From positions 2,232,001 to 2,296,000 of the forward strand of contig AP025582.1 of assembly GCA_022846075.1 (NCBI GenBank): a stretch of DNA of 64,000 nt. The letters are read 5' to 3'. Positions 3,194 through 63,115 of this stretch are shown here, in pieces. The stretch comes from Oscillospiraceae bacterium. Lineage in GTDB: Bacteria > Bacillota > Clostridia > Oscillospirales > Oscillospiraceae. The notes under the pieces are model-generated. The model did no database searches and had not been told where the DNA came from. It saw nothing but the letters and a program-made list of their open reading frames with translations. Position numbers and translations under genes: made by a program. Each line of letters starts with the position of its first letter. The stretch's first letter is position 1.

Positions 3194-3736
3194 ATGGACA
3201 AAAGAAAAGCGGCCAATGAAAGAGTGAAGGACCGCCTGTTTTCCGCGCTGATCGAGTTTGCGGGGCACAAGGACTGGTCCAAGCTGACCGTTACAGAGCT
3301 GATTGAAAAGTCGGGCGTCGCCCGGGCCTCCTTTTACCGCAATTTCAAGTCTGTGGAAGAACTGATCGATTATGGCATCCAGTGCATGGCGGCGCGCTAC
3401 CATGAGGGAAACGGGTGCCGGAGCGAGGATTTTCACAGCCGGGAGGCCATGCTGTACAAATTCCGGTTCTACCGGGAAAACGCCGAGATCGTTTTGGCCT
3501 TTCACCGCGCCAAGATGTCGGTCACGCTGTTGGACATCATTACCGACTGTGAGATCGACGCCTATGGAGATATGCCGGTCAATTCCATATCGAAATATGA
3601 GCTTTACTATTTTTCAGGGGCCTTTTATAACATGATGCTCCACTGGCTGGAACATGGAACGAAGGAAACGCCGGAAGCCATGGCGGATGAATTTTTGCGA
3701 ATCGCGGGCCAAATCAATCCTTCCATAGACTCATAA
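3194..3736 (+). CDS. TetR/AcrR-family transcriptional regulator
   Basis: A 180-residue regulator. The N-terminal DNA-binding domain (about 10-55) shows LTVTELIEKSGVARASFYRNF, the classic TetR helix-turn-helix. The remaining roughly 120 residues form the ligand-binding, dimerising part, in which no ligand can be read. ATG 3194 is chosen because GAGGGGAA lies 9 bp upstream, while a longer in-frame start at 3131 would fall inside the operator. It is divergent from the EFR1/nitroreductase operon and probably represses both. It runs convergent with gltB with only 20 bp between stop codons and no clear terminator. Confidence 0.9.
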   Translation: MDKRKAANERVKDRLFSALIEFAGHKDWSKLTVTELIEKSGVARASFYRNFKSVEELIDYGIQCMAARYHEGNGCRSEDFHSREAMLYKFRFYRENAEIVLAFHRAKMSVTLLDIITDCEIDAYGDMPVNSISKYELYYFSGAFYNMMLHWLEHGTKETPEAMADEFLRIAGQINPSIDS

Positions 3737-50039: not shown

Positions 50040-53000
50040 TCACCGTCTGACCAGATACCCCACGTAGCCCCGCATGATCTCGGCGGCCTGCGCCCGGGTG
50101 ATGGGGGCGGTCAGATCCCCGTCCTCCCCCAGCCGCACCAGACCGGCGTTGATGGCCCAGGCCACGGCTTCCGCCGCCCAGGAGGAGGTCCCCTCCGGCG
50201 CCCCTGCCCCGGTGTCGTCCGCCGCGGGCACCAGCAGGTCGGCGTAGGTGGTGTAGCGATAGAGCATCACCAACATCTGTTCGGCGGTGAGGGCCACGTC
50301 GGGGGCAAAGCCCTCCCCCGTGCCCTGGACCACGCCGCTCTCGCCGCCCCAGGCCGCGGCGGAGGCGAACCAGGCCTCCGGCGGCACGTCGGGGAACAAC
50401 TCCAGCCCCTCCGGGTCCTCCGCCCCGTTCAGACGCCACAGCACCGTGGCCAGCATGGCCCGGTTCATAATCATCTCCGGGGAGAACTCCCGCTCCCCGG
50501 TGCCCGTCCACAGGGCCCGGGCCGCGCCGAAGTCGGCGGCCGCCTTGGCCGCCCCCTCCACGTCATCGAAGAAGTCCCCGGCGGTGACGATCCTCAGCTC
50601 TTCCGAGGCCTCCAGCACCACGTAGGCCTTGCCGTCCTCCACCAGTGCCAGGGCGACGGGGGTGCCGTCCCCCCGCAGCACCACCGTGCCGTCGGTCACG
50701 GGGATGGCCACGATCACCGGGGTGTCCAGCGCGCCGGGCAGGTCCACCGCGATGGCGGTGGACCCCTCCCCCGTCCCGCTCCCGCTGGTGGGAATGCTCT
50801 GGCCGGGGATCTCCACCAGAGGCACGCCGCCCTCCTTCGGCGGCGTCAGCGCCGTCTGGGGCACCGTGACGGCGGCGGTCACCGTGCCGTCCTTCTCCGT
50901 CTTTACCACGGTCTCCACGCCGTTTTCGGCCTTGGTGGTCTCGGTGACCGTGCCCGTTTTCTTGTCCGTGACGGTGGTGGTCTTGCTCCCGTCCGGGTTG
51001 GTCTGGGTCGTGGTCGTGGTGGTAGTGGAACTGCTGGAGCCGCCCGTGCCGCTCGAACTTCCGCCGCCGGACTTGGTGAAGTCCGGGTAGGCCCCGGCGT
51101 GGGCGTACCACGCGGCGTAGTCCGCGCCCTCGTCCTGGGCGGTCACCCAGGCGCTCAGGGTGTCGGCGAAGGCGGGGGACTGCATCTCATCCGCCGTCAT
51201 GGCGGTGGGGGTGTTGACGAAGGTGCCGTAGCCCGAGGGGGCGCCCATGGTGTTCAGGTAGTAGAGCGGGCCGGTAACTCCGGTGGCATTCTCTGCGTCA
51301 CCCACCAGAGCGGCGGTGCGGACAGGTCCGGCGCCGGGCTGGACGGTCACCGCCCCCGCCGCGTAGCAGTTTCTCATGTCCACCTTCGGGTCACCATCAT
51401 AACCCGACATACTACCCACCAGGCCCCCGGCGTATACAATATATATGTTGCGGACGCCGGTCGGACTGCCGACGGGCCCCACGAACACCTCCGCCAGAGC
51501 GGCGCAATTGCTCAGGGTCGTGTCGGATACCTCCATCTGGCCCACCAGGCCGCCCACCATTCCATCCCGCCCGGCCAGGGAGACCGTGCCGGTAAACAGG
51601 ACGTTGTAGATCTCGATGGGGCCGCCAAATACCGACCCGGCCAGGCCGCCCACGCAGGCCGTGCCCGAGGTCCTGGCGGCGGACACGTTCCCAGAGAGGG
51701 TCAGGTCGTGGATCGTGCCCCTGCACATGCTGAACAGTCCGGCGCACTCCCAGTTGCCCGTCACGTTCATGCCGGTGATGGCGTGGCCCTGGCCGTCAAA
51801 CTCGCCGTAGAATATACCAACAGTTCCCCCAATGGGGACCCAGTCGTGGGCGCTCAGGTCGATGTCGGCCCCCAGCTTGACGGTCTTGCTACCCAAGCCG
51901 TTCCTGTCGTCCACCAGCTTCGCCAGACCCGCCAGTTGTTCGGCGGTGGTGAGGGTGAATTCCGACTTCTGACTGTCGTACCAGGCGGTGTCGGCAAACT
52001 CGGTCCAGCGGGCCCGGCCCACGGTGATGGGGCCGGTCAGGGTCAAATTATTACCATCCTGGGTTCCAGACAGGTCCACCACCATGTTCTGGTCCCCGTC
52101 GTAGAAGTGGTAGCCCTCCGCCAGCAGGTCGGCCGGGGTGGCGTCGCCGTCCACATCCGCCAACGTGGGCTTGTACATCAAAATGGCCTTCTCCCCCAGG
52201 AAGCTGCCGCCGGAGAGGATGCCCTTGTACGCGAATTCCGTGCTCGGCCTAATCCAGAGGGCCGCCTTGCCCTCCGCCCCTTGGAAGGTACCGCCCGAGA
52301 TCGCAAGGCTCTGACCGCTCGAAAAGCGACCCCCGTAATTGCTTGAGCCGGTGAAGCTCCCCCCGGTGACGGTGAGCGTGGCCGATTTGCTGTTTTCTAT
52401 GATGATTCCGCTATTCCCGTAGTAGCTGCCTCCGGCGATTTGGACTGTTCCCATCAGTTGCACTCCGTATCCTCTGGAGCTCTCCGACGGGCCAGCGCCG
52501 CCGGTCACCGTGGGCGAAGCTCCCTGAGGGACCCGCAGGGTCCCCACCGTGTTCACAACGACACCATAGCCACCGCCGCTTTTCCCGACGCCGCCGGTGA
52601 TGAAGGGGGTCCCGGTGAGGGTCAGACTTCCGCCCAACACTCGGACGCCCTGGCCGCCGTAGCCAAGTTCCGCGTCCCCCGTGCCATCTCCGCCTGTCAC
52701 GTGGGCGTCTCCCGTCACGGTGAGGGCCCCGGCCTTCACCTGGATGCCCGCCCCGCCTGTGGCGATTTTGATCTCATCGAGGTGATAAAAGGTCCCCGCC
52801 GCGCCGCCGGTGGCGGCGCTGGGGTAGTCCTCGTCAAAATCGCTGTCCATGACGGTCAGCTTCACCCCCGCCCCGTTCAGGACCAGGGCGGGCTTACCGT
52901 CGGCGGCGCTGTCGATATTATTGGTCTCCAGCGCCGCCCCCGGCGCGCCGGTGATACTGTACCCGCAGAGGTCCAGGGTGTAGGTCCCCGCCGTGATTTC

Positions 53001-56000
53001 CACGGGGAGCATCAGGGTCACGTTTTTGTCCAGGGTGACGGTGTTGGTCTGGGGGTCGATGAGGGCGTTCTTCGCCCCGCCCAGGGCGGCCTGGAACTCG
53101 TAAATGTCGTGGACCGGCCCGCCCCGGCGGGCGATGTAAACGGTGTCGGAGGTTCTTTCGCCCGAGGGCTGTTCGTCCAGCTTCTCGCCGTATTCGTCCG
53201 CGTAGTAGCAGTAGTCCGGCAGGAGGGCGGACAGGTATGTACTCCCGACGATGCGCAACTGAATCCCCGCATAACATCCGCCGATGAGCAGCGGACGGAT
53301 GGCATTATCTGGCCACCCGATGTCCAAGCCGTAGGCTGCGCTTTGGCTTCCCTCTCCGCCGGTATAGGTACCGCCGGTAAGGGTCCCGTCCACCTCGCTG
53401 TAATGTTCCAGAGCCAGCCCGGAGCCGCCGTTGGTGCTTCCGCTTCCGCCGGTGAGGACAGGCCCCGCGCCGAGGGCCAGGGCCAGGGTGCCGCCGTCCC
53501 CGCAGAGCACGCCGGAGCCGCCGTCGCCGCTGTCGCTCGCGCCGCCGGTGACCCGGACCTTGCCGGACAAAATCAGCTTGCCGCCGTCCTCCACCGACAC
53601 CCCGGAGTGTTGGCCCGCACCGCCAATGACCAGCCCCGCGCCGCTGTCGTCGTGGAGGGTCAGCTCCCCGCCGTTCTCCACCTCAACGGCGACATTCCCC
53701 ACCGCCCCGGTGATGGTACAGCCGTTCAGGTCCAGGGTCACCTTCTTGTCGATTACCAGGGCTTCTTGCAGAACCGTGTTCTGCAAGAGCCGGACGGACT
53801 GGCCGTCCACGGCGGCGGCAAGGGCGGCGGGCAGGCTCTCGTAATACCTGCCGCCCACCTCCGCCGCTCCTTTGGAGGTCATGACGATGGCGTTGCCGTC
53901 CAGCGCCAGCGCGTAGTCCGGGCTGTCGGAGAAGAAGGCCGCCAGGTCGGTTTGGGTGAGGGTGTAGGGCGTCAAGCCGTCCTCCGCGGTGGCCCCACGG
54001 GCCACCACGCCGGGGGCGGGGACTATGCTCATGGTCCAGGTGCTCTCGTCCATGACCATTGACACCCGGCTCACGCCGATGGAGCCCGCCCCGCCGGTGA
54101 GGGGGCCGGTGACCACGGCCACGGTCTCCGGGGGCGGGGCCATGTCATAATAGTCCTCGTCCCCCATTTCGGGCAGCTCCAGCAGCACCAGATTGGCGGG
54201 GGTTCCCGTCCCCTGGCCGACGTAGTTGCCCTTGACGGTCACGTTCCCGGAGAGGATGACCTTATTGGTCAACACGCCGCCCGCCATGGGGGGAAGCTCG
54301 GCATAGACCTCGTCCTCGTAGTAGCTGGGGAAGTCCGGCATGGCGGCCCGGTTGCCGGTGATGAGGGTGGGGTGTTCCGCCGTGCCAGAGAGGGTGAGGG
54401 TGAGGGGGTCCTCATACCCCCTCAGCATCACGCCCCCCGCCGTAATGCCGGTGTTGCCGCGAATGGTGACGCCGGACATCGCCAAGTCCGCCTCACTGAG
54501 CACGCCGCCCGCATCGCCGCCCAGGTTGCCGCTGACCTCGCTGTTCGTAACGGTGGCCTTTCCGCTGTTATAAATCATAAGTCCGCCCACAAAATCGCCC
54601 AGGTTGTTTCGGATAGTGGTGCCGGTGAGGTTGGCTTCCCTGCCGATGACGACCGCCGCATCGGGCGGGCCCTCCTCCACCGGCTCCGCCGGGGGCGGGT
54701 CAAAATAGCCGTTGTTCTCCACCGTCACGTTGTCTATCACCAGCTCCGGGCAGCTGGTCTCCGGGCTGTCCACCACTGGGCCGGGATATTGGGAGCTGCC
54801 GGGAAGCTCCGGGCCGGCGCCGTTCAGGGTGAGGTCTTTCAGGGTGACGGTTCCAGAGTTCGTGTGTTTCAATTCCACCAGCGGACGGAATATCCCCGCC
54901 TCCCGGGACAGGGTGTTGCCGCAGCCTTCTACGGTGAAGGTGACGGATATAGCATACTCATTCCTGTCCGCCAGGGCCCCGGACAGGTCCGTCAGGAGGT
55001 TGAAGGTTTTTCCGTCGTAGTCATAGTCAAAATAGGAGTCCATGTCCTTTAGGCTACTGAAATAGCGGGAGGCGGTGGTCCCCTCCGGGTCCTCGTAGTC
55101 CACCAGAATGTTCTTGTCGAAGGCCCGGACCTCCAGGACGGGGGGAACGGGGTCGCCCAGGCCGAAGAAATACTCCCGGTCCTCCTTCGGCTCGAAGTAG
55201 CCATAGCCCGCCGCCAAGGGGAGGGGGTTCCCGCTGAAGGCTTTGCTGTTCAGGCCATCGCCGCCCTTAAAATAGCCCTTGGTGAGGGTACCCTCGACCT
55301 CGGCGGCGTCGCCGCTGACCCCCATACCGCCGTTGTCCGTGCCGTTTCCACCGACGCAGGTGAGGTCCAGGCCCTCCGACAGGTTCAGCAACGAGCCGGA
55401 CACCAGCGCAAGGCCGCTCCCCCCCGCGCCGTCGGTACTTTCTCCGCCGGTCAGGGTCAATTTCCCCTCCAGGATGAGCTCGCTGGCGTTCCCCACCGAC
55501 ACGGCGGGGCCCGCCGCTTCGCCCGAGCCCCCCGTCACGGCCCCCGGCCCTTTCAGGGTCAGGTCGCCGCCGTCCAGGAACAAGGCGGCGCTGGTCCCCG
55601 TCCCCAGGAGGGTGTGGCCGTTCAAGTCCAGGGTCCACGTCCCGGGTTTAAACTCGACTCCACTCTCCACCTGGATGTTGCCGGTAAGGGTGACTGTCTT
55701 GCCGTCGGCGCTCACCGTGGCCTTGTTGCCGAACACGGTCCGAATCTCATCGGCGGTACTGTCGTTGTTGATGCTCCCGCCGGGGACGGTGATGGAATCC
55801 TTCACCGCCAGGTAGGTGGCCGTAGCCAAAGCGCCGTCGGCCACGGGGTCGCCGTTTTGGTCCACGTATTGGCACTCTTCTCCCAGGAGGGTCGGGAGGG
55901 GTTCGTTTTCAGAGTCGATGGCCGGACCGCCGGCGCTCTCGAACACGCCGCCGGTGAGGGTAGGAGTGCCAATCGTGCCCAGCGCCGGTTCGCCCTTGAA

Positions 56001-58010
56001 CGCGCCGCCGGTGATGGTCAGGCTGGTGCCGGTACTAAAGACCGCGCCCGCTTCGCCGCCGTCCACTCCGCCGCCGCCATAGCCGTCCGTGATGGTGAGG
56101 GCGCCGTCCACGCACATCACGGCATAGGACACCGACAGCCCTTCCGCCAGGGAAAGGGTGTATCCGTTCAGGTCCAGGGTCCAGTCGCCGCCGCTGAACA
56201 TCACCTCTTGCCCCAGGGTCACGTCGTCGGTAAGGGTAATGAATTGGCCGCGCTGGTCCTTCTCCGCGTTGCCGCCGAAGATACTTTCCACGGCGGCGGC
56301 ATCGGTGTCACTCGTGACGCTGCCGCCCAGGGGCTTGACGGTCACGGCGGGGGTGACGCTGCCGCTGCCGTTCACCCAGGTGCCGTCATCCTTGTAGAAG
56401 CCGTAGCCGGGGGCCAGGAGAGATTTGTTTCCGGGATTGTAGATTGCCGAACCGCTCCCGCCGCTTGCGGGGGTAAATGTACCGCCGGTGAAGTGCCCCT
56501 CTACGGTAGCGTTGGCGTTCAGTTGCAGGCCCGAACTGCCGGTACACACGGGGGCCGCGCCGTCGCCGATGGTCAGCGTGGTGCCGTAATCGCATTGAAG
56601 CCCCACCCCGTCGGGCGAACCCCTTCCGCCGGTCAGCGTCGGCTTTGCCCCCTCGCCCAGGATGAGAGCGCCAGAACCGTGAGCATAAACGCCATTGCCG
56701 CCTGCACCTCCGCCGGTGAGGGCGACAGAACCCTCCAGGGTGAGGGTGCCGGATACGTCCACGGTAGCCATTCCTGACGTTTCGCCGCCCAGCACCCCGC
56801 CGCCCTCGGTGGAGGTGAGGGTAAGCTTAGCGCCCGCCCCCACCGCCAGTGCGCTGCGTCCATCCGGCCCGGTAATGGTGTGGCCGTTCAGGTCCAGGGT
56901 CCACTCGCCGCCGGTAAAGGTGATTTTGTCGGTGAGGGTAACGTTCTTTGTAAGGCGGAGGGTGCTGTCCTCCGCCTCGCAGCCCTCCATGAGGGCTGCG
57001 ATTTGCCCGGCGCTGGTACCAGCGCCGATTTCTCCGCCGGGGGATGTTGTGGGGCCGGTGCCGGGGTCCTCTCCGCCACCGGAGCCGCCGCCCGATGAGT
57101 CCACGTAGACCGAGTAGGCCAGACTGGTTTCGTCGTTCAGCGTCACTTTCGAGTTGTCCGAAACCTTGTAGAAAGAGTAGCCCTCCGCCAGGAGATCGGA
57201 AAGAACAGGGGTAGAGCCTCCCCCAAACAGGTCGATTGCTTTGATTCCGTCTGTGTTGCCGCTTCCGGGAGCAAATTTTCCGTCGGTAAAATGACCCACT
57301 ACGGCCACAGTACCCACCAGTTCCAGGCCGGAGCCGGGGCCGCCCTCCTCCGTTCTGGTCGAAGCGCCGCCAATACATACTGGGGCTGCGCGGGTTCCGA
57401 TATTCAGCGTGGAACCGTCGCTGCAGCGAAGCCCCGCCCCGGCAAAAGATGTACTGCTTCCGCCTGTGAGCGTCGGCGCCGCGTCCTCACCGAGGAACAG
57501 CGTGCCGCCCTCAGAGACCAAAAGCCCATACGCCATCACGTTAAAATTGTCACAGGCCCCACCCGTCAAGGTAACAGCGCCTTCCAGTGTGAGGGTGCCC
57601 GATACTTTCACCGCCGTACGGTTGACACCGCCCAGAACCGCACCTCCTCCCCCACTGTCCCGCAGCGTGAGCGTAGCGGAAGAGTCAACGGTCAGCGTAG
57701 GGACATCATATATAACGTAACCATCATTATTTATGTTCCCTGCTCCGATGATAGTGTTGCCTCCAAGATTTAAGGCCCACACGCCATTGTCAAAAGATAT
57801 TGTATCTGTGGCCACAATATCTTTTTGGAGCGTGATGGTGGTTCCCTCAATCTGAATATTGTCCTCGCCGAACGCCGTTTTCGCGCTGGCCCCGTCCGCG
57901 ATGGACCCCCCGGGGGCAACCACCGGGTCCCCCGCCGCCCACGCCGACGCCGGCAGCAGGCTCCACACCATGCACGCCGTTAACAAAATACTCAATAGTC
58001 TCTTTCTCAT
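50040..58010 (-). CDS. Giant secreted SLH-anchored beta-helix surface protein
   Basis: A 2656-residue exported protein. A signal peptide (1-25, cut near AWA-AG) precedes modular repeats. Four modules begin with GGSI/GGEI/GGSV at about 34, 325, 562 and 744; each has a TLxxDV stretch then WTLDLNGHTI and many LTGG turns. Related units start near 1388 and 1636. Such short-strand, Gly-rich repeats predict right-handed beta helices. A GLUG-like region (GGLAGSVFGG, GGLVGQM, GGLVGS) spans 2110-2205. A Ser/Thr-rich linker (2313-2345) leads to three SLH domains (about 2479-2656) that bind cell-wall polysaccharide. GGAGGG is 8 bp before the ATG. Likely adhesin or S-layer-associated protein; ligand unknown. 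Confidence 0.9.
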   Translation of the reverse strand: MRKRLLSILLTACMVWSLLPASAWAAGDPVVAPGGSIADGASAKTAFGEDNIQIEGTTITLQKDIVATDTISFDNGVWALNLGGNTIIGAGNINNDGYVIYDVPTLTVDSSATLTLRDSGGGGAVLGGVNRTAVKVSGTLTLEGAVTLTGGACDNFNVMAYGLLVSEGGTLFLGEDAAPTLTGGSSTSFAGAGLRCSDGSTLNIGTRAAPVCIGGASTRTEEGGPGSGLELVGTVAVVGHFTDGKFAPGSGNTDGIKAIDLFGGGSTPVLSDLLAEGYSFYKVSDNSKVTLNDETSLAYSVYVDSSGGGSGGGEDPGTGPTTSPGGEIGAGTSAGQIAALMEGCEAEDSTLRLTKNVTLTDKITFTGGEWTLDLNGHTITGPDGRSALAVGAGAKLTLTSTEGGGVLGGETSGMATVDVSGTLTLEGSVALTGGGAGGNGVYAHGSGALILGEGAKPTLTGGRGSPDGVGLQCDYGTTLTIGDGAAPVCTGSSGLQLNANATVEGHFTGGTFTPASGGSGSAIYNPGNKSLLAPGYGFYKDDGTWVNGSGSVTPAVTVKPLGGSVTSDTDAAAVESIFGGNAEKDQRGQFITLTDDVTLGQEVMFSGGDWTLDLNGYTLSLAEGLSVSYAVMCVDGALTITDGYGGGGVDGGEAGAVFSTGTSLTITGGAFKGEPALGTIGTPTLTGGVFESAGGPAIDSENEPLPTLLGEECQYVDQNGDPVADGALATATYLAVKDSITVPGGSINNDSTADEIRTVFGNKATVSADGKTVTLTGNIQVESGVEFKPGTWTLDLNGHTLLGTGTSAALFLDGGDLTLKGPGAVTGGSGEAAGPAVSVGNASELILEGKLTLTGGESTDGAGGSGLALVSGSLLNLSEGLDLTCVGGNGTDNGGMGVSGDAAEVEGTLTKGYFKGGDGLNSKAFSGNPLPLAAGYGYFEPKEDREYFFGLGDPVPPVLEVRAFDKNILVDYEDPEGTTASRYFSSLKDMDSYFDYDYDGKTFNLLTDLSGALADRNEYAISVTFTVEGCGNTLSREAGIFRPLVELKHTNSGTVTLKDLTLNGAGPELPGSSQYPGPVVDSPETSCPELVIDNVTVENNGYFDPPPAEPVEEGPPDAAVVIGREANLTGTTIRNNLGDFVGGLMIYNSGKATVTNSEVSGNLGGDAGGVLSEADLAMSGVTIRGNTGITAGGVMLRGYEDPLTLTLSGTAEHPTLITGNRAAMPDFPSYYEDEVYAELPPMAGGVLTNKVILSGNVTVKGNYVGQGTGTPANLVLLELPEMGDEDYYDMAPPPETVAVVTGPLTGGAGSIGVSRVSMVMDESTWTMSIVPAPGVVARGATAEDGLTPYTLTQTDLAAFFSDSPDYALALDGNAIVMTSKGAAEVGGRYYESLPAALAAAVDGQSVRLLQNTVLQEALVIDKKVTLDLNGCTITGAVGNVAVEVENGGELTLHDDSGAGLVIGGAGQHSGVSVEDGGKLILSGKVRVTGGASDSGDGGSGVLCGDGGTLALALGAGPVLTGGSGSTNGGSGLALEHYSEVDGTLTGGTYTGGEGSQSAAYGLDIGWPDNAIRPLLIGGCYAGIQLRIVGSTYLSALLPDYCYYADEYGEKLDEQPSGERTSDTVYIARRGGPVHDIYEFQAALGGAKNALIDPQTNTVTLDKNVTLMLPVEITAGTYTLDLCGYSITGAPGAALETNNIDSAADGKPALVLNGAGVKLTVMDSDFDEDYPSAATGGAAGTFYHLDEIKIATGGAGIQVKAGALTVTGDAHVTGGDGTGDAELGYGGQGVRVLGGSLTLTGTPFITGGVGKSGGGYGVVVNTVGTLRVPQGASPTVTGGAGPSESSRGYGVQLMGTVQIAGGSYYGNSGIIIENSKSATLTVTGGSFTGSSNYGGRFSSGQSLAISGGTFQGAEGKAALWIRPSTEFAYKGILSGGSFLGEKAILMYKPTLADVDGDATPADLLAEGYHFYDGDQNMVVDLSGTQDGNNLTLTGPITVGRARWTEFADTAWYDSQKSEFTLTTAEQLAGLAKLVDDRNGLGSKTVKLGADIDLSAHDWVPIGGTVGIFYGEFDGQGHAITGMNVTGNWECAGLFSMCRGTIHDLTLSGNVSAARTSGTACVGGLAGSVFGGPIEIYNVLFTGTVSLAGRDGMVGGLVGQMEVSDTTLSNCAALAEVFVGPVGSPTGVRNIYIVYAGGLVGSMSGYDGDPKVDMRNCYAAGAVTVQPGAGPVRTAALVGDAENATGVTGPLYYLNTMGAPSGYGTFVNTPTAMTADEMQSPAFADTLSAWVTAQDEGADYAAWYAHAGAYPDFTKSGGGSSSGTGGSSSSTTTTTTTQTNPDGSKTTTVTDKKTGTVTETTKAENGVETVVKTEKDGTVTAAVTVPQTALTPPKEGGVPLVEIPGQSIPTSGSGTGEGSTAIAVDLPGALDTPVIVAIPVTDGTVVLRGDGTPVALALVEDGKAYVVLEASEELRIVTAGDFFDDVEGAAKAAADFGAARALWTGTGEREFSPEMIMNRAMLATVLWRLNGAEDPEGLELFPDVPPEAWFASAAAWGGESGVVQGTGEGFAPDVALTAEQMLVMLYRYTTYADLLVPAADDTGAGAPEGTSSWAAEAVAWAINAGLVRLGEDGDLTAPITRAQAAEIMRGYVGYLVRR

Positions 58011-58063
58011 TCCGCGTCCCTCCCTTGATGGTCTGTGGTCACAAAAGTTTCTTCCTAGCTTCG

Positions 58064-58072
58064 ATTATACCA
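58064..58072 (-). promoter_or_regulatory. Extended -10 promoter of the giant surface gene
   Basis: On the minus strand TGGTATAAT is an extended -10 element about 55 bp before the start codon. No good -35 stands at 17 bp, which is common for activator-dependent promoters. The TTGA-rich box at 58093-58107 lies where an activator would bind. Confidence 0.6.
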
Positions 58073-58092: not shown

Positions 58093-58107
58093 TCAATCTT
58101 TCGTCAA
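58093..58107 (-). promoter_or_regulatory. Putative response-regulator box, giant-gene side
   Basis: Minus strand TTGACGAAAGATTGA: TTGA half-sites repeated with 11-bp spacing, matching 14 of 15 positions with the box at 58156-58170 on the other strand. It lies about 20-35 bp upstream of the giant gene's -10. Tandem direct repeats at 11 bp are typical for OmpR-family regulators, and such a regulator is encoded by the divergent gene. Confidence 0.55.
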
Positions 58108-58155
58108 TTTTTCACAGCGGGGCGGTCCCCAGGGCAAGCCGGGGCCCGCCGGATA

Positions 58156-58170
58156 TTGACGAAAAATTGA
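58156..58170 (+). promoter_or_regulatory. Putative response-regulator box, regulator side
   Basis: TTGACGAAAAATTGA, the same tandem TTGA-N7-TTGA arrangement as at 58093-58107, facing the response-regulator gene and about 35 bp upstream of its -10. Suggests autoregulation. Confidence 0.55.
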
Positions 58171-58204
58171 GGATTGGGGCGGATGGATTCTCCGGGATCT
58201 ATGC

Positions 58205-58210
58205 TATAAT
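58205..58210 (+). promoter_or_regulatory. -10 element of the response-regulator gene
   Basis: TATAAT at 58205-58210 lies 36 bp before the start codon. No consensus -35 is present, consistent with activation from the upstream TTGA box. Confidence 0.55.
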
Positions 58211-58245
58211 GGAGAAAAAGACCGCGAACAGGGAGGGGAACGGCC

Positions 58246-58926
58246 ATGTACCGTGTACTGCTGGTGGACGACGACCGGGCGCTGCTGGACGCCAACGAGG
58301 CCTATTTCGCCGACCACGGCTATCTGGTCCACCGGGCGGAGACGGCCCGGGACGCCCTGGCCATCCTGCGGGGGGCCAAGCTGGACTGTGTGGTGCTGGA
58401 CGTGGACCTGCCCGACCAGGACGGCTTCCAGGTCTGCCTCCAGGCCCGGAAATATTCCAGCATCCCCATCGTCTTTCTCTCCGGCTACACGGAGGAGGAG
58501 AGCCGGGTGCGGGGGCTGACCATCGGCGGGGACGACTACGTGACCAAGCCTTTCTCCGTCACGGAGCTGGAGCTGCGGGTACGCCTGCGCATCCAGCGCC
58601 ACCAGACCGCCCAACCCCTGACCGTTCTGGACTTCGGGCCGTTGTCCATCGACCTGAGCCGCCGCGCCGTGTCCTATGAGGGCAGGGAGCTGGAGTTTTC
58701 CCGCCTGGAATTCGACGTGCTGTCCTATCTGTGCCTCCATCCGGGCCGGACCTTTTCTTATGGGGAGCTTTACGCCGGTGTGTGGGACGAGCCCATACAG
58801 GCGGGGCTTCACAACCTGCAGGTGAACATCGCCAAGGTGAGGCAAAAGCTCTCCGGGCTGGCGCCCGGCCGGAACTATATCCGAACGGTGCGGGGCAAGG
58901 GATACCTGTTCGATCCGGAGGGATAA
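58246..58926 (+). CDS. OmpR/PhoB-family response regulator
   Basis: A 226-residue regulator. The receiver (1-118) has the acidic pair VDDDR at 7-11, phosphorylation site Asp52 in VVLDVDLPDQDG, and Lys101 in VTKPFS, so it should be phosphorylatable. The winged-helix DNA-binding domain (about 125-223) ends with YIRTVRGKGYLFDPEG. GGGAGGGG lies before the ATG. It is divergent from the giant surface gene and 2.2 kb from the histidine kinase gene, read in the same direction, with one surface-protein gene between them on the other strand. The likely partner is that kinase. Confidence 0.92.
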   Translation: MYRVLLVDDDRALLDANEAYFADHGYLVHRAETARDALAILRGAKLDCVVLDVDLPDQDGFQVCLQARKYSSIPIVFLSGYTEEESRVRGLTIGGDDYVTKPFSVTELELRVRLRIQRHQTAQPLTVLDFGPLSIDLSRRAVSYEGRELEFSRLEFDVLSYLCLHPGRTFSYGELYAGVWDEPIQAGLHNLQVNIAKVRQKLSGLAPGRNYIRTVRGKGYLFDPEG

Positions 58927-58931
58927 AAAAG

Positions 58932-59089
58932 CAGCTCTCCGAGCTGTTTTTATCCGCGTCCGCCCACTCCAGTGGGCGGACGCTTACGGTTTCAGGCCGT
59001 GGGCCGGGGCGGCCTGGCTGAACGTTTTTACAGCGCTGTACGGCAGAGCTGTAAAAACGCACGGAGGCCAGGTCTTGGCCTCCGTGCGT
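58932..59089. terminator. Cluster of hairpins between convergent genes
   Basis: Four hairpins follow each other: CAGCTC-TCC-GAGCTG with T5 (58932-58951), terminator of the response-regulator gene; CGTCCGCCCACT with its complement (58957-58982); GTTTTTACAGC with its complement (59024-59058); and ACGCACGGAGGCCA with TGGCCTCCGTGCGT plus T4 (59057-59089). The last ones can act on either strand and end the convergent surface-protein transcript. Confidence 0.75.
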
Positions 59090-59120
59090 TTTGGACAGGC
59101 TATGGGGATCTGACGGTCAC

Positions 59121-59167
59121 GCCCCCTCTCCGTCAGCTTCGCTGACACCTCCCCCGGAGGGGAAGGC
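59121..59167. repeat. Half-copy of the MITE-like repeat
   Basis: CCCCCTCTCCGTCAG, a small palindrome GTCAGCTTCGCTGAC and CCCCCGGAGGGGAAGGC follow the same order as the right half of the element at 40270-40317. It lies between convergent genes. Confidence 0.55.
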
Positions 59168-59197
59168 TTTTCCTCTTGGGGGGGAACGGGCCCGGGC

Positions 59198-61108
59198 TCA
59201 CTTCCTTCCGCGCCGGAGTTTCCTCCACAGTGCCCTGGCCGCGCCGGGGTTCAGCAGCGCCGCGGCACCGCCCGTCACCGCCGCGATGGCGGCGATCCCC
59301 AGGGCGATCTGGGCCGCCGGGGGCAGAGCCGGGGCCTCTTCCGCCGTCTGGGGAGGCGGGGTGGGGGCCGGGGCCTCCGTCTCTTCCGCAGGGGGCTGGC
59401 TGGGGGAAGCGGACGGCTCCGCCGTGGGCCCAGGCGTGGGCTGGACGGGTTCCGCGGTTTGGGTTACAATGGGGGTATCCACAGGCTCCACCGGCTTTGA
59501 CGGTGCCGGGGACACCGCCGCCGCCGGCACGTAAGGCTCCGGCGTGACGGCGGCCTCCGGGGACTCCGGCGGCGCCTGGCTCGGGCTGGGTTCCGGGGTA
59601 GGGACCGGCTCCGGGGTTGGGGACACGGAGGGTTCCGGCGAGGGCGTCGGTGTGGGGCCCGGCGTCGGCTTTGGCGTCGGGCTGAGACGCGGCGCGGCCG
59701 TCGGCTTTGGCGTGGACACCGGCCTGTCGTCATCCTCGTGATCATCGTCATCGTGGCCGCCGGACGGTTCCGGTGGCGGGAGAATGGGTTCCCCGCCGCC
59801 CCGGTGGCCGTCGTACCAGGGCATGGGAGAGGTATTGTCCTCGTCGATCCGCACCGTGTCGGTGTGGACCAGCCGCTCCCCGCCGGGGCTGGCCGGGTCG
59901 GGATAGACCAGTTCCAGCAGGAACCAGCTCCCCGGTTGGAAGGGGATCGCTCCCACCGTGAGAAATTGGTCTTTCTTGTCCTGAAACTCCTGCTCCACCC
60001 GCCAGGTCTTTCCCTCGTCCTCGGAGTACAGGGCCCGCACGGCGGTGGCGCCTGGGTCCGCGATATAATAGACGTACCCCACCATGCTGGTCATGCCCGA
60101 GGTGGAGGTGCCCACCTGAAAATCCAGGTTGAGCAGGGCCGCGCCCCCCTCCCGGAAAGCCACCACGCACTCCGGCGTCACCGCGGCGGCGCAGTCCTCG
60201 GCGGCGAAGGTCATTCCGTCTACCGTGACCTCCCCGGTGAAGCGCCCCTGAAGGGTGACCCGCTGGCGCTGGGCGAAGGCCTCCGCCGCCGGGGCGGTGT
60301 CCCAAAGGACGGCCACCTCCTGGGTCTCGGTGACCCCCTGGAACTTCACCTGGACCTCCACTGAGGCGGGCAGGGCCGCCAAATCAGGGGCCTCCCCGTC
60401 GGGCACCGCCAAAGCGGGGACGAAGAGGGGCGGCACCTCGCAGAAAATGGTGGGCCGCTCCCCGTACACGATGGTTCCCGTCAGCGCCAGCCTCGCCGGG
60501 TCGGTGTTCAAAATGCCGCCCTCTTCTTGGCCCAGCGCCACACCGGCCTCGCTCCCAGCGTCCAGGGTGATATAATAGGCGTTCAGGGTCCCGCCGGGCA
60601 GGACCCTCAGCAGCCCCTCCTCCGTCCCATCGCCGGTAAAGGTCAGGAGATGGGTCAAGCTCGCATTGATACAGTCGAGCTCCAGCACGCCCTGGACATA
60701 GATGGTGTGTTCCCCGCAGTCCACCGTCACCGGTCGGAGCTTCCCGGTGTTGGGGCCCAGATTCGCCAGATAGCCGAACATTCCATCCATGGTGATATCG
60801 TCTGTCAGCCGGACCGTACCGCCCACCAGCCGGTTGTCCAGCAGCCAGGCCCGCAGCTCCCCCCAATCGGAGACGGTGTCCTCCTCCACCGGGGCGCCGC
60901 CCACCCCGTCCTCCGGGACACCCCCGCCAGGCGGGGTTTCTGACGGCGGCAGGTGCAAGTCGGTCGGGACGTCGGACGGCAGCGCGCCGGACGCCTCCGG
61001 CGCCGGGCCGGGGGGCGGGGCCTCCTCCGCCATCGCCGGCGGCAGGGCCAAACACAGGGACAGCAGCAGCGCCAGCGCCGCCGCGGCCCGTCGCGGGCAG
61101 ATGGTCAT
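59198..61108 (-). CDS. Membrane-anchored surface protein with proline-rich stalk
   Basis: A 636-residue exported protein. Signal peptide 1-27 (LALLLSLCLALPPAMAEE). The ectodomain (about 75-430) includes GGTVRLTDDITMDG and VTVDCGEHTIYVQG, which resemble the beta-helix start of the giant protein's modules, followed by beta-rich units. A long TPxP/PxP-rich stalk (about 440-590) leads to a C-terminal membrane helix (AQIALGIAAIAAVTGGAAALL) and basic tail. There is no LPXTG sortase signal, so it is held by the helix. GGGGGAG precedes the ATG. Its gene lies between the response regulator and kinase, on the opposite strand. Confidence 0.85.
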   Translation of the reverse strand: MTICPRRAAAALALLLSLCLALPPAMAEEAPPPGPAPEASGALPSDVPTDLHLPPSETPPGGGVPEDGVGGAPVEEDTVSDWGELRAWLLDNRLVGGTVRLTDDITMDGMFGYLANLGPNTGKLRPVTVDCGEHTIYVQGVLELDCINASLTHLLTFTGDGTEEGLLRVLPGGTLNAYYITLDAGSEAGVALGQEEGGILNTDPARLALTGTIVYGERPTIFCEVPPLFVPALAVPDGEAPDLAALPASVEVQVKFQGVTETQEVAVLWDTAPAAEAFAQRQRVTLQGRFTGEVTVDGMTFAAEDCAAAVTPECVVAFREGGAALLNLDFQVGTSTSGMTSMVGYVYYIADPGATAVRALYSEDEGKTWRVEQEFQDKKDQFLTVGAIPFQPGSWFLLELVYPDPASPGGERLVHTDTVRIDEDNTSPMPWYDGHRGGGEPILPPPEPSGGHDDDDHEDDDRPVSTPKPTAAPRLSPTPKPTPGPTPTPSPEPSVSPTPEPVPTPEPSPSQAPPESPEAAVTPEPYVPAAAVSPAPSKPVEPVDTPIVTQTAEPVQPTPGPTAEPSASPSQPPAEETEAPAPTPPPQTAEEAPALPPAAQIALGIAAIAAVTGGAAALLNPGAARALWRKLRRGRK

Positions 61109-61135
61109 TCGATTCTCCCCCTTGAGGTGATGGTT

Positions 61136-63115
61136 ATGAAACGAAGCTGGAAGCGCGCCGGGCCCGCCCTGGCCTGCTGCCTTTTGGCGGCGGCGGCGCT
61201 GTGCCTGCTCTACCGATTCGACAATAAGTATACCGCAAGGGCGGCTTTGACGCAAGACGGAGCGGTGGCGCTCTCCGCCGGGGCCGTGGACCGGGGGGTG
61301 CTGTTCCCCGCCGTGGACGGCTGGCAGCTCTGGCCCGACCGGCTTCTGGCCCCCGGGGAGCTGGAGACCTCCGGCGGGCCGCCGGTAGAGACCTACATCG
61401 GCCAGGCCCTCACCCTGCGGCCCTACCACGCCGACGGCTCCCCTTACGGCGTGGCCACCTGGCGGCTGCGGCTCACGTCGGACCGGCCCGTCACCGTGAG
61501 CATGCTCATCCCGGAGGCTTACTGCGCCAGCGCGGTGTGGGCCGGTGGAGCCTATCTGGGCGGCACCGGCTCTGTGGAGCCCTATACCCCCCTGGTGGCC
61601 GACGGGCTCTACTCCTTTTTACTGGACGGGCCCACCGAAGTGGTGGTCCAGACCGCCAACTACTCCCACTACTACTCCGGCCTCACTTTCCCGCCGGTGA
61701 TGGGCTCCCCCGGCGCCTTGGGGCGGTATATGGCCCTGCGGCTGGTCCTCTACGCCTTTCTCTGCTTCTCCTCCCTGGCTGTCGCCCTCTTTTCCGCGGC
61801 GGTCTGGCTGGGGCGGAAGGGGCGGCGGGACCCCCTGCACCTCTGGTTCGGGGGGCTGTGCCTGGCCTTTGCCCTGCGGGTGTGCTACCCCTTCGTCCGG
61901 GCCGCGGGGGTCCCCCTGGTGTGGCCCCTCTACGCCCTGGAGGATCTGGGGGCTTTCGCCCTGCTCTACTGCGCCGGGCGGATCGTCTGCCGCCTGGGGG
62001 GCTGGGAGGACAGGCCATGGGCCCGGTACGGGCTGTTCCCCGTCTCCCTGGCCATGTGCGCTGTGGGTGCGCTGGGCCCCGGCCTGCTCCTCCCCGCCCT
62101 GCCCGCCTTCTCCCTGGTTTACGGCCTCCTGGTGAGCTGGTACCAGCTTATCACGGCGGTCCTGCTGCTGGCCCTTGCCCTCCGGGGGGCCTCCGGCAAG
62201 AGCGCCGCCCCCCTGTGCGGCCTGGGGGTCTTTGCCGTAACGGAGTTTTTCTCCGTGGTGTGGAACGGCCCCTTCGAGCCCCTCCGGGGGGCCTGGCCGG
62301 AGGAGTACGGCGGCTTCGTCCTGGTGCTGTGCTTCGCCTGGCTCATGGTGGAGCGCAGCCGCTCCATGGCCGCGGAGAACGAGCGCCTCACCGACTGCCT
62401 CCAGGAGGAGGTGGCCCTGAAGACCGCCTCCCTCACCGCCATGACCCAGGAGCGGGCCCGGCTCCTGGCCGGGATGCTCCACGACCTCAAGTCCCCCCTG
62501 TCCGCCATCCAGAACTACGCCGCCCTGATCCGGGAAAACGGCGTGCTTTTGGACGAGGACACCAGGGATAAGCTGGCCCTGATCGACGGCAAATGCCGGG
62601 ACCTGGGCGGACGGATGAAGGCCATTCAGACCGTCAATTCCAGCCGTCCCGCCGCCCTCCGGCCCGAGCCGGTGGACCTGGCCGCTCTGCTGGAGCGCTT
62701 CTACCGGCGCAACAAGCCCGATATCGAGGTGGGGGACGTGGATTTCCTCCTCCGCCTGCCGGGGGAGCGGTGCATCCTCCAGGCAGACCCCGCCGCCCTG
62801 GAGCAGGTGTTGGAAAACCTGGTCTACAACGCCGTCTCCTTCACGCCCCCCGGCGGGCGGATCCTCCTGTCCCTGGACACGGCGGAGGGCCGCCCGGTCC
62901 TCCGGGTTTCGGACACCGGCGCCGGCATCCCACCAGATGTCCTCCCCCACATCTTCGAACCCGGCTTCACCACCCGCGCCGGGGACGGTGGACAGGGCCT
63001 TGGCCTGGCCATCGTCAAGTCTACCGTGGAGTCTGCCGGCGGCAGCGTCACGGCAGCCTCCACGCCGGGGCTGGGGACGGAGTTTGTCCTCAGGTTTCCA
63101 CCTTTTTCAGGTTGA
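61136..63115 (+). CDS. 7TM-type sensor histidine kinase
   Basis: A 659-residue kinase. A signal/anchor helix (about 10-27) is followed by an extracytoplasmic beta domain (about 40-195, ending GLYSFLLDGPTEVVVQ), then seven hydrophobic segments (about 200-425), the layout of 7TMR-DISM receptors. The kinase core has the phospho-accepting His near 449 in MLHDLKSPLSAIQ, the N box ENLVYNAVSF near 561, and G boxes DTGAGIP and GQGLGLAIVK. ATG 61136 is preferred as GAGGTG stands 6 bp upstream. Only 27 bp separate its start from that of the divergent surface gene. Probable partner of the regulator at 58246. Confidence 0.9.
   Translation: MKRSWKRAGPALACCLLAAAALCLLYRFDNKYTARAALTQDGAVALSAGAVDRGVLFPAVDGWQLWPDRLLAPGELETSGGPPVETYIGQALTLRPYHADGSPYGVATWRLRLTSDRPVTVSMLIPEAYCASAVWAGGAYLGGTGSVEPYTPLVADGLYSFLLDGPTEVVVQTANYSHYYSGLTFPPVMGSPGALGRYMALRLVLYAFLCFSSLAVALFSAAVWLGRKGRRDPLHLWFGGLCLAFALRVCYPFVRAAGVPLVWPLYALEDLGAFALLYCAGRIVCRLGGWEDRPWARYGLFPVSLAMCAVGALGPGLLLPALPAFSLVYGLLVSWYQLITAVLLLALALRGASGKSAAPLCGLGVFAVTEFFSVVWNGPFEPLRGAWPEEYGGFVLVLCFAWLMVERSRSMAAENERLTDCLQEEVALKTASLTAMTQERARLLAGMLHDLKSPLSAIQNYAALIRENGVLLDEDTRDKLALIDGKCRDLGGRMKAIQTVNSSRPAALRPEPVDLAALLERFYRRNKPDIEVGDVDFLLRLPGERCILQADPAALEQVLENLVYNAVSFTPPGGRILLSLDTAEGRPVLRVSDTGAGIPPDVLPHIFEPGFTTRAGDGGQGLGLAIVKSTVESAGGSVTAASTPGLGTEFVLRFPPFSG

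Follow-up and report, generated by a model that had tools for sequence, protein, structure and literature searches.

The 235 bp gap between two divergently transcribed genes of the window (the whole 64 kb stretch of DNA analysed here), one for a response regulator and the other for a giant secreted protein, carries two tandem boxes that are probably operators of the adjacent regulator, through which it would activate its own gene and, here, the giant gene as well (Table 1). The box facing the regulator recurs before orthologs of this regulator in other genera and families, at a fixed spacing to an extended -10.

Table 1. Genes, boxes and promoter elements of the region, in positions of the window
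Feature	Position	Strand	Basis and remarks
Giant secreted protein, 2656 aa, C-terminal SLH; proposed target	50040..58010	-	Open reading frame and Pfam
Extended -10 TGGTATAAT, giant gene promoter	58064..58072	-	Sequence; 23 bp past the giant-gene-facing box
Giant-gene-facing tandem box TTGACGAAAGATTGA	58093..58107 (read 58107-58093)	-	Sequence; 23 bp gap to the -10
Regulator-facing tandem box TTGACGAAAAATTGA	58156..58170	+	Sequence; 10 further loci of the closest group have a counterpart before the regulator
Extended -10 TGCTATAAT, regulator promoter	58202..58210	+	Sequence; 34 bp past the regulator-facing box
Response regulator, OmpR/PhoB-type, 226 aa, PF00072 and PF00486	58246..58926	+	Open reading frame and Pfam
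Secreted protein, C-terminal membrane anchor (by eye)	59198..61108	-	Opposite strand, between regulator and kinase
Membrane histidine kinase, PF00512 and PF02518; presumed partner of the regulator	61130..63115	+	Pfam

The product of the adjacent gene is an OmpR/PhoB family response regulator, with a receiver domain (PF00072, 85.1 bits) and a winged-helix C-terminal domain (PF00486, 63.4 bits), both above the cut-off. No named equivalog model reaches its cut-off among the best 25 of the 92 listed, the PhoB model TIGR02154 scoring 151.8 against a cut-off of 296.2 and CreB 163.2 against 273. The secreted protein between the regulator and the kinase matches no Pfam family. The sensor part of the kinase appears, by eye, to be 7TMR-DISM-like, but there is no Pfam match to 7TMR-DISM in the kinase at E ≤ 1. 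There are 107 SLH matches in the genome of the window, several of them in very long open frames (3229 and 5036 aa); examples on C1 are at 2298993 and 2888878, one of which is just past the right end of the window.

The first-pass annotation had the coordinates and sequences of the two boxes exactly, as well as their identity at 14 of 15 bases, the TTGA half-sites 11 bp apart (start to start) in both, and the outward orientation of the pair between the two promoters. The inverted match extends to a 22 nt inverted repeat, 86% complementary with 46 nt between its arms, and the boxes are 63 bp apart centre to centre, which is about six helical turns. TTGA-N7-TTGA is present at two sites only in the 64 kb window, these being the two boxes, where 0.77 are expected and two or more are seen in 16 of 100 shuffles. 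Because a bare count of two is not unusual window-wide, the weight rests on the placement of the boxes and on their recurrence. When the 235 bp gap is shuffled with its dinucleotides preserved, 0 of 5000 shuffles have the motif on both strands and 48 of 5000 have at least one site; 2 of 400 contain a 15-mer whose inverted match reaches 14 or more bases.

In both promoters the -10 hexamer is TATAAT with a preceding TGn (58205-58210 on the plus strand, 58069-58064 on the minus strand), while the best -35 at a spacing of 16-18 bp matches TTGACA at 2 of 6 positions for the regulator and 1 of 6 for the giant gene, so that the earlier description of a good -10 and a poor -35 at each holds. The TTGAC motifs do not serve as -35 elements, their distance to the -10 being incompatible with a 16-18 bp spacer, and a generic σ70 promoter scan of the region gives 0 promoters. 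From the two -10s, transcription is predicted to begin near 58217 on the plus strand and near 58057 on the minus strand. Between the last base of TGA-N8-TGA and the -10 (TGn is absent from the search pattern), eight loci of the closest ortholog group have 23 bp, two have 22 bp, and the window regulator has 34 bp; the gap is 23 bp at the giant gene of the window, where the geometry is the canonical one, and 45 bp in the more distant G113 (43% identity). Gaps of 23, 34 and 45 bp are steps of 11 bp, and the window regulator has one helical turn more than 23. All 13 promoters found have TGnTATRAT as their -10, and in each the best -35 matches at 4 of 6 positions at most.

Twenty regulator loci were gathered, including that of the window and L049. 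The window regulator, used as query, matches at E ≤ 1e-45 in 11 of the 400 family genomes searched (its own included). The genus of G400 has matches in 7 of 64 genomes, which add five new loci, and that of G293 in 2 of 8, which add none. With the G137 regulator, matches are found in 5 of 394 genomes of the order at E 1e-55, three of them new, and in 1 of 4 genomes in the genus of G183, which adds no further locus. Among the 80 loci listed in a scan of named genomes, L049 is the one ortholog. TGAC-N7-TGA is present before the regulator in 8 of 9 loci (2000 shuffled sets have it in 0.26 loci on average and in 3 at most), and in all three loci fetched later, the regulators of which are 70-77% identical to that of G137 and not fully independent. 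In the closest ortholog group it is found, with its period of 11 bp, in 11 of 12 loci, and none of the other periods from 3 to 27 bp is above 5 of 12. G113, G229, L049 and the G400 group are not counted in it, and its line was drawn after the upstream sequences and neighbours had been viewed, making 11 of 12 a favourable figure; across all of the gathered loci, unselected, 12 of 20 have the box and a phased -10. The arrangement is absent in seven of the 20 (G014, L049, G400, G425, G472, G456, and G442), and in G229 there is a box, TTGACAGAAATTTGAC, before the regulator without a recognised -10. With two head-to-tail half-sites at an 11 bp period near a promoter, the boxes are predicted to be operators of the OmpR/PhoB type, and the one at the regulator's own promoter is conserved in sequence, as would fit an autoregulated two-component system.

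Several loci show variations on the box. In G612 (L214, upstream of 8404) the regulator is preceded, by eye, by two boxes in succession and two possible -10s, and in G253 (L134, at 10065) there are three TGA half-sites at 11 bp steps. The G400 group (L129, L130, L139, L140, and L141) has a TTGACG half-site, with no second TGA by eye, some 35-36 bp from a -10 facing the divergent gene; its neighbours, named by eye, are STAS and phosphatase-like genes. The less similar regulator of G229 (L048, 39%) has TTGACAGAAATTTGA upstream near 1430, and TTGACTGAAATTTGA recurs near 3428 before a lipoprotein-like gene that follows the kinase, so that this may be an operator of the type described here with a second target. 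The recognition-helix region varies with the half-site, being HNLQV in the window and in G113, which have TTGAC boxes, and mostly HNIQVCMARVRQKL where the boxes are GTGAC, with the exception of G712 (HNLQV, GTGAC).

The giant gene side is less widely shared. In G181, G183, G612, and G513 the divergent gene beside the regulator begins, by eye, with what resembles a signal peptide; the neighbour in G137 is a frame without such a start, with a secreted giant behind it. Among these, the G183 neighbour alone is clearly homologous to the giant protein of the window, in the SLH part and a middle part; the match of the G181 neighbour is marginal (E 4e-4), and the long G137 protein is not clearly homologous. 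There is no giant-facing box in any of these five orthologous gaps, as sought by split matrix (G181, G137, G183), by eye, and by pattern (G612, G513). In G181 and G183 a single box, which might serve both directions, lies, by eye, 44 and 43 bp from a possible divergent -10. The first-pass annotation had called for phylogenetic footprinting of the gap and had named absence of the boxes from orthologous gaps in which the genes are kept as one result that would refute its proposal; by that test, conservation, with the regulator-facing box kept in 11 of 12 loci but the giant-facing box in 0 of 5 gaps, confirms only the regulator half of what it proposed. As no giant-facing box is present in the five gaps, it is autoregulation that seems to form the conserved core, with the separate giant gene box as a feature of the window lineage.

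The giant-facing box was also scored with a matrix from seven orthologs, the window excluded. With whole-turn shifts, the regulator site (27.0 bits, at +11) and the giant site (24.7 bits, at +0) are first and second in the 64 kb, the next window score being 17.9, or 21.7 when any shift of 0-22 bp is permitted. With no shift, the giant site is first in the window at 18.3 bits (next 15.4), but it is outscored by at least six placements, with up to 20.7 bits, in the 1.02 Mb of other loci. A promoter profile built from eight promoters, that of the window giant gene included, was run over 12 genomes, in each of which 150 of the 169 to 390 candidates were scored, and was blind to +11 bp variants; it returned those eight sites (E ≤ 1.2e-5) and nothing else under E 0.03, and missed the window regulator promoter due to its extra helical turn. 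In the window's own genome the giant promoter is the sole site listed, for 150 of 208 candidates scored and with +11 bp variants invisible, and on those terms no further site is listed for the genes of the 107 SLH matches. Seven further places in this genome match the window box with two mismatches, and the strict pattern of box and -10 has no match in their loci.

It might be that only the regulator-facing box works and that the giant-facing copy is a chance or recent inverted duplicate of little weight. Its absence from the five orthologous gaps inspected would fit, as would the lack of another SLH-linked site in the genome among the 150 of 208 candidates scored, +11 bp variants being invisible. 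This is nevertheless rather unlikely, given that the giant-facing box is exactly 23 bp from TGGTATAAT, which has no -35, and that shuffling of the gap never produced both boxes together.

Gene order around the regulator is partly conserved. Kinase homologs are present in ten other loci, over 635-665 aa at 37-46% identity, and the order of regulator, opposite-strand secreted anchored protein, and kinase is found in G137, G253, G113, G468, G480, G513, G712, G425, and L049. It is absent in G293, with no gene between, and in G612 and G014, where no such kinase adjoins the regulator; the G181 contig ends at the regulator-kinase stretch. In the window (58926-61130) the starts of the anchored protein and of the kinase are about 20 bp apart, and nine other loci repeat this arrangement, L132, L213, L212, and L204 being among those with these three genes. 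The middle secreted protein itself is poorly conserved, with matches solely in L049, G113, G442, and G400, and none in G137.

The boxes could instead bind another OmpR-type regulator of the genome, which has 28 matches to the window regulator (E ≤ 0.001), and the sites of the OmpR family are all direct repeats (PMC4832192); or the adjacent regulator could act there as a repressor. Both are improbable. The arrangement of box and -10 tracks the orthologs of the window regulator, being present in 0 of 79 other OmpR-type regulators among the matches listed in the named-genome scan, and in 0 of 28 paralog loci of related genomes (L012-L039), some of them shortened by contig ends. In the 79 listed controls, which are from many phyla and therefore differ in base composition, TGAC-N7-TGA is found once and TGA-N8-TGA six times. 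A box common to all OmpR-type regulators can thus be set aside for these listed controls. In 1.16 Mb of fetched, partly overlapping loci there are three matches elsewhere (L055, L117, and L135), which look like chance. A box placed 22-45 bp before -10s that lack a -35 is what would suit an activator. That the inverted repeat forms an RNA hairpin or terminator, as its 86% complementary 22 nt arms might suggest, is very improbable and has been dropped, because both arms are upstream of both -10s and hence outside both predicted mRNAs, the region has no terminator-like site or Rfam match, and the orthologs retain the tandem box rather than the inverted pair.

If the two boxes are operators of the adjacent regulator, as is preferred here, the presumed kinase would phosphorylate the regulator, which would then bind head to tail on both half-sites of a box, spaced 11 bp apart, and recruit RNA polymerase to a promoter with an extended -10 and no -35. 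We infer the binding, its dependence on phosphorylation, activation rather than repression, and the pairing with this kinase from sequence and gene position. The plus-strand box would drive the regulator gene, in positive autoregulation of the PhoB/PhoP type, and the minus-strand box would drive the gene for the giant SLH surface protein in the window lineage, where the regulator and the surface protein would be switched on together. More tentatively, an inverted copy of an ancestral self-activating two-component promoter may have captured the giant gene, the site sliding by whole turns, with dimers that could touch. Were this doubtful extension true, gaps of 23, 34, and 45 bp would keep the face of the DNA and set different strengths for the regulator and its target, and the spacing of about six turns would let two dimers share a face, coupling the divergent promoters.

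The operator reading probably describes an ordinary, well-known kind of mechanism in an unstudied two-component system, for which a literature search of partial coverage recognised no published description. It would give an uncharacterised system of several genera a defined candidate operator, a promoter rule (TGAC-N7-TGA, 23 bp, TATRAT with a preceding TGn, and shifts of one helical turn) sharp enough for a test with one purified protein, and, in the giant SLH surface protein, a first predicted target. It also offers a natural example in which orthologous promoters differ by whole helical turns in the position of their regulator site.

Operators of the OmpR family are direct repeats bound as tandem dimers (PMC4832192, PMC4415409). 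The mycobacterial PhoP operator is a direct repeat of TCACAGC with a strict 4 bp spacer and an 11 bp period, bound by a tandem dimer; the ortholog boxes, in reverse complement, likewise read TCAC-N7-TCAC or close to it, but the third to fifth motif bases and the recognition helix differ, and the system is a different one (PMC4832192). The PHO box of E. coli PhoB has two 11 nt direct repeat units, bound head to tail, and its core CTGTCAT resembles the reverse complement of GTGAC, by which likeness the boxes here would be oriented oppositely toward the promoter (PMC4415409). If their resemblance to half-sites of the TGTCA type shows how the regulator sits on them, the boxes would face away from the promoter. 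A reversed box of Salmonella PhoP works at 27, 37, and 48 nt, with little activity at 23 and 28-32 nt (PMC3335776), and the inactivity of that orientation at these distances would count against the operator reading preferred here. The half-site of Salmonella PhoP is (T/G)GTTTA, as opposed to TTGAC/GTGAC, and its regulon is large, whereas one site per genome is seen here by a profile blind to +11 bp variants (PMC3335776 for Salmonella). Its box is 17 nt, so distances are only roughly comparable, the present gaps then being about 21, 32, and 43. A direct box is active at 12, 23, and 33 nt, with little activity at 7, 17, and 25-28 nt, and it is this case that the 11 bp ladder of the window and its orthologs resembles, the engineered Salmonella promoters following a similar whole-turn rule. 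As in the system described here, a single tandem box upstream of the -10 is used there with no reliance on a -35, and the phoP promoter is autoregulated (PMC3335776).
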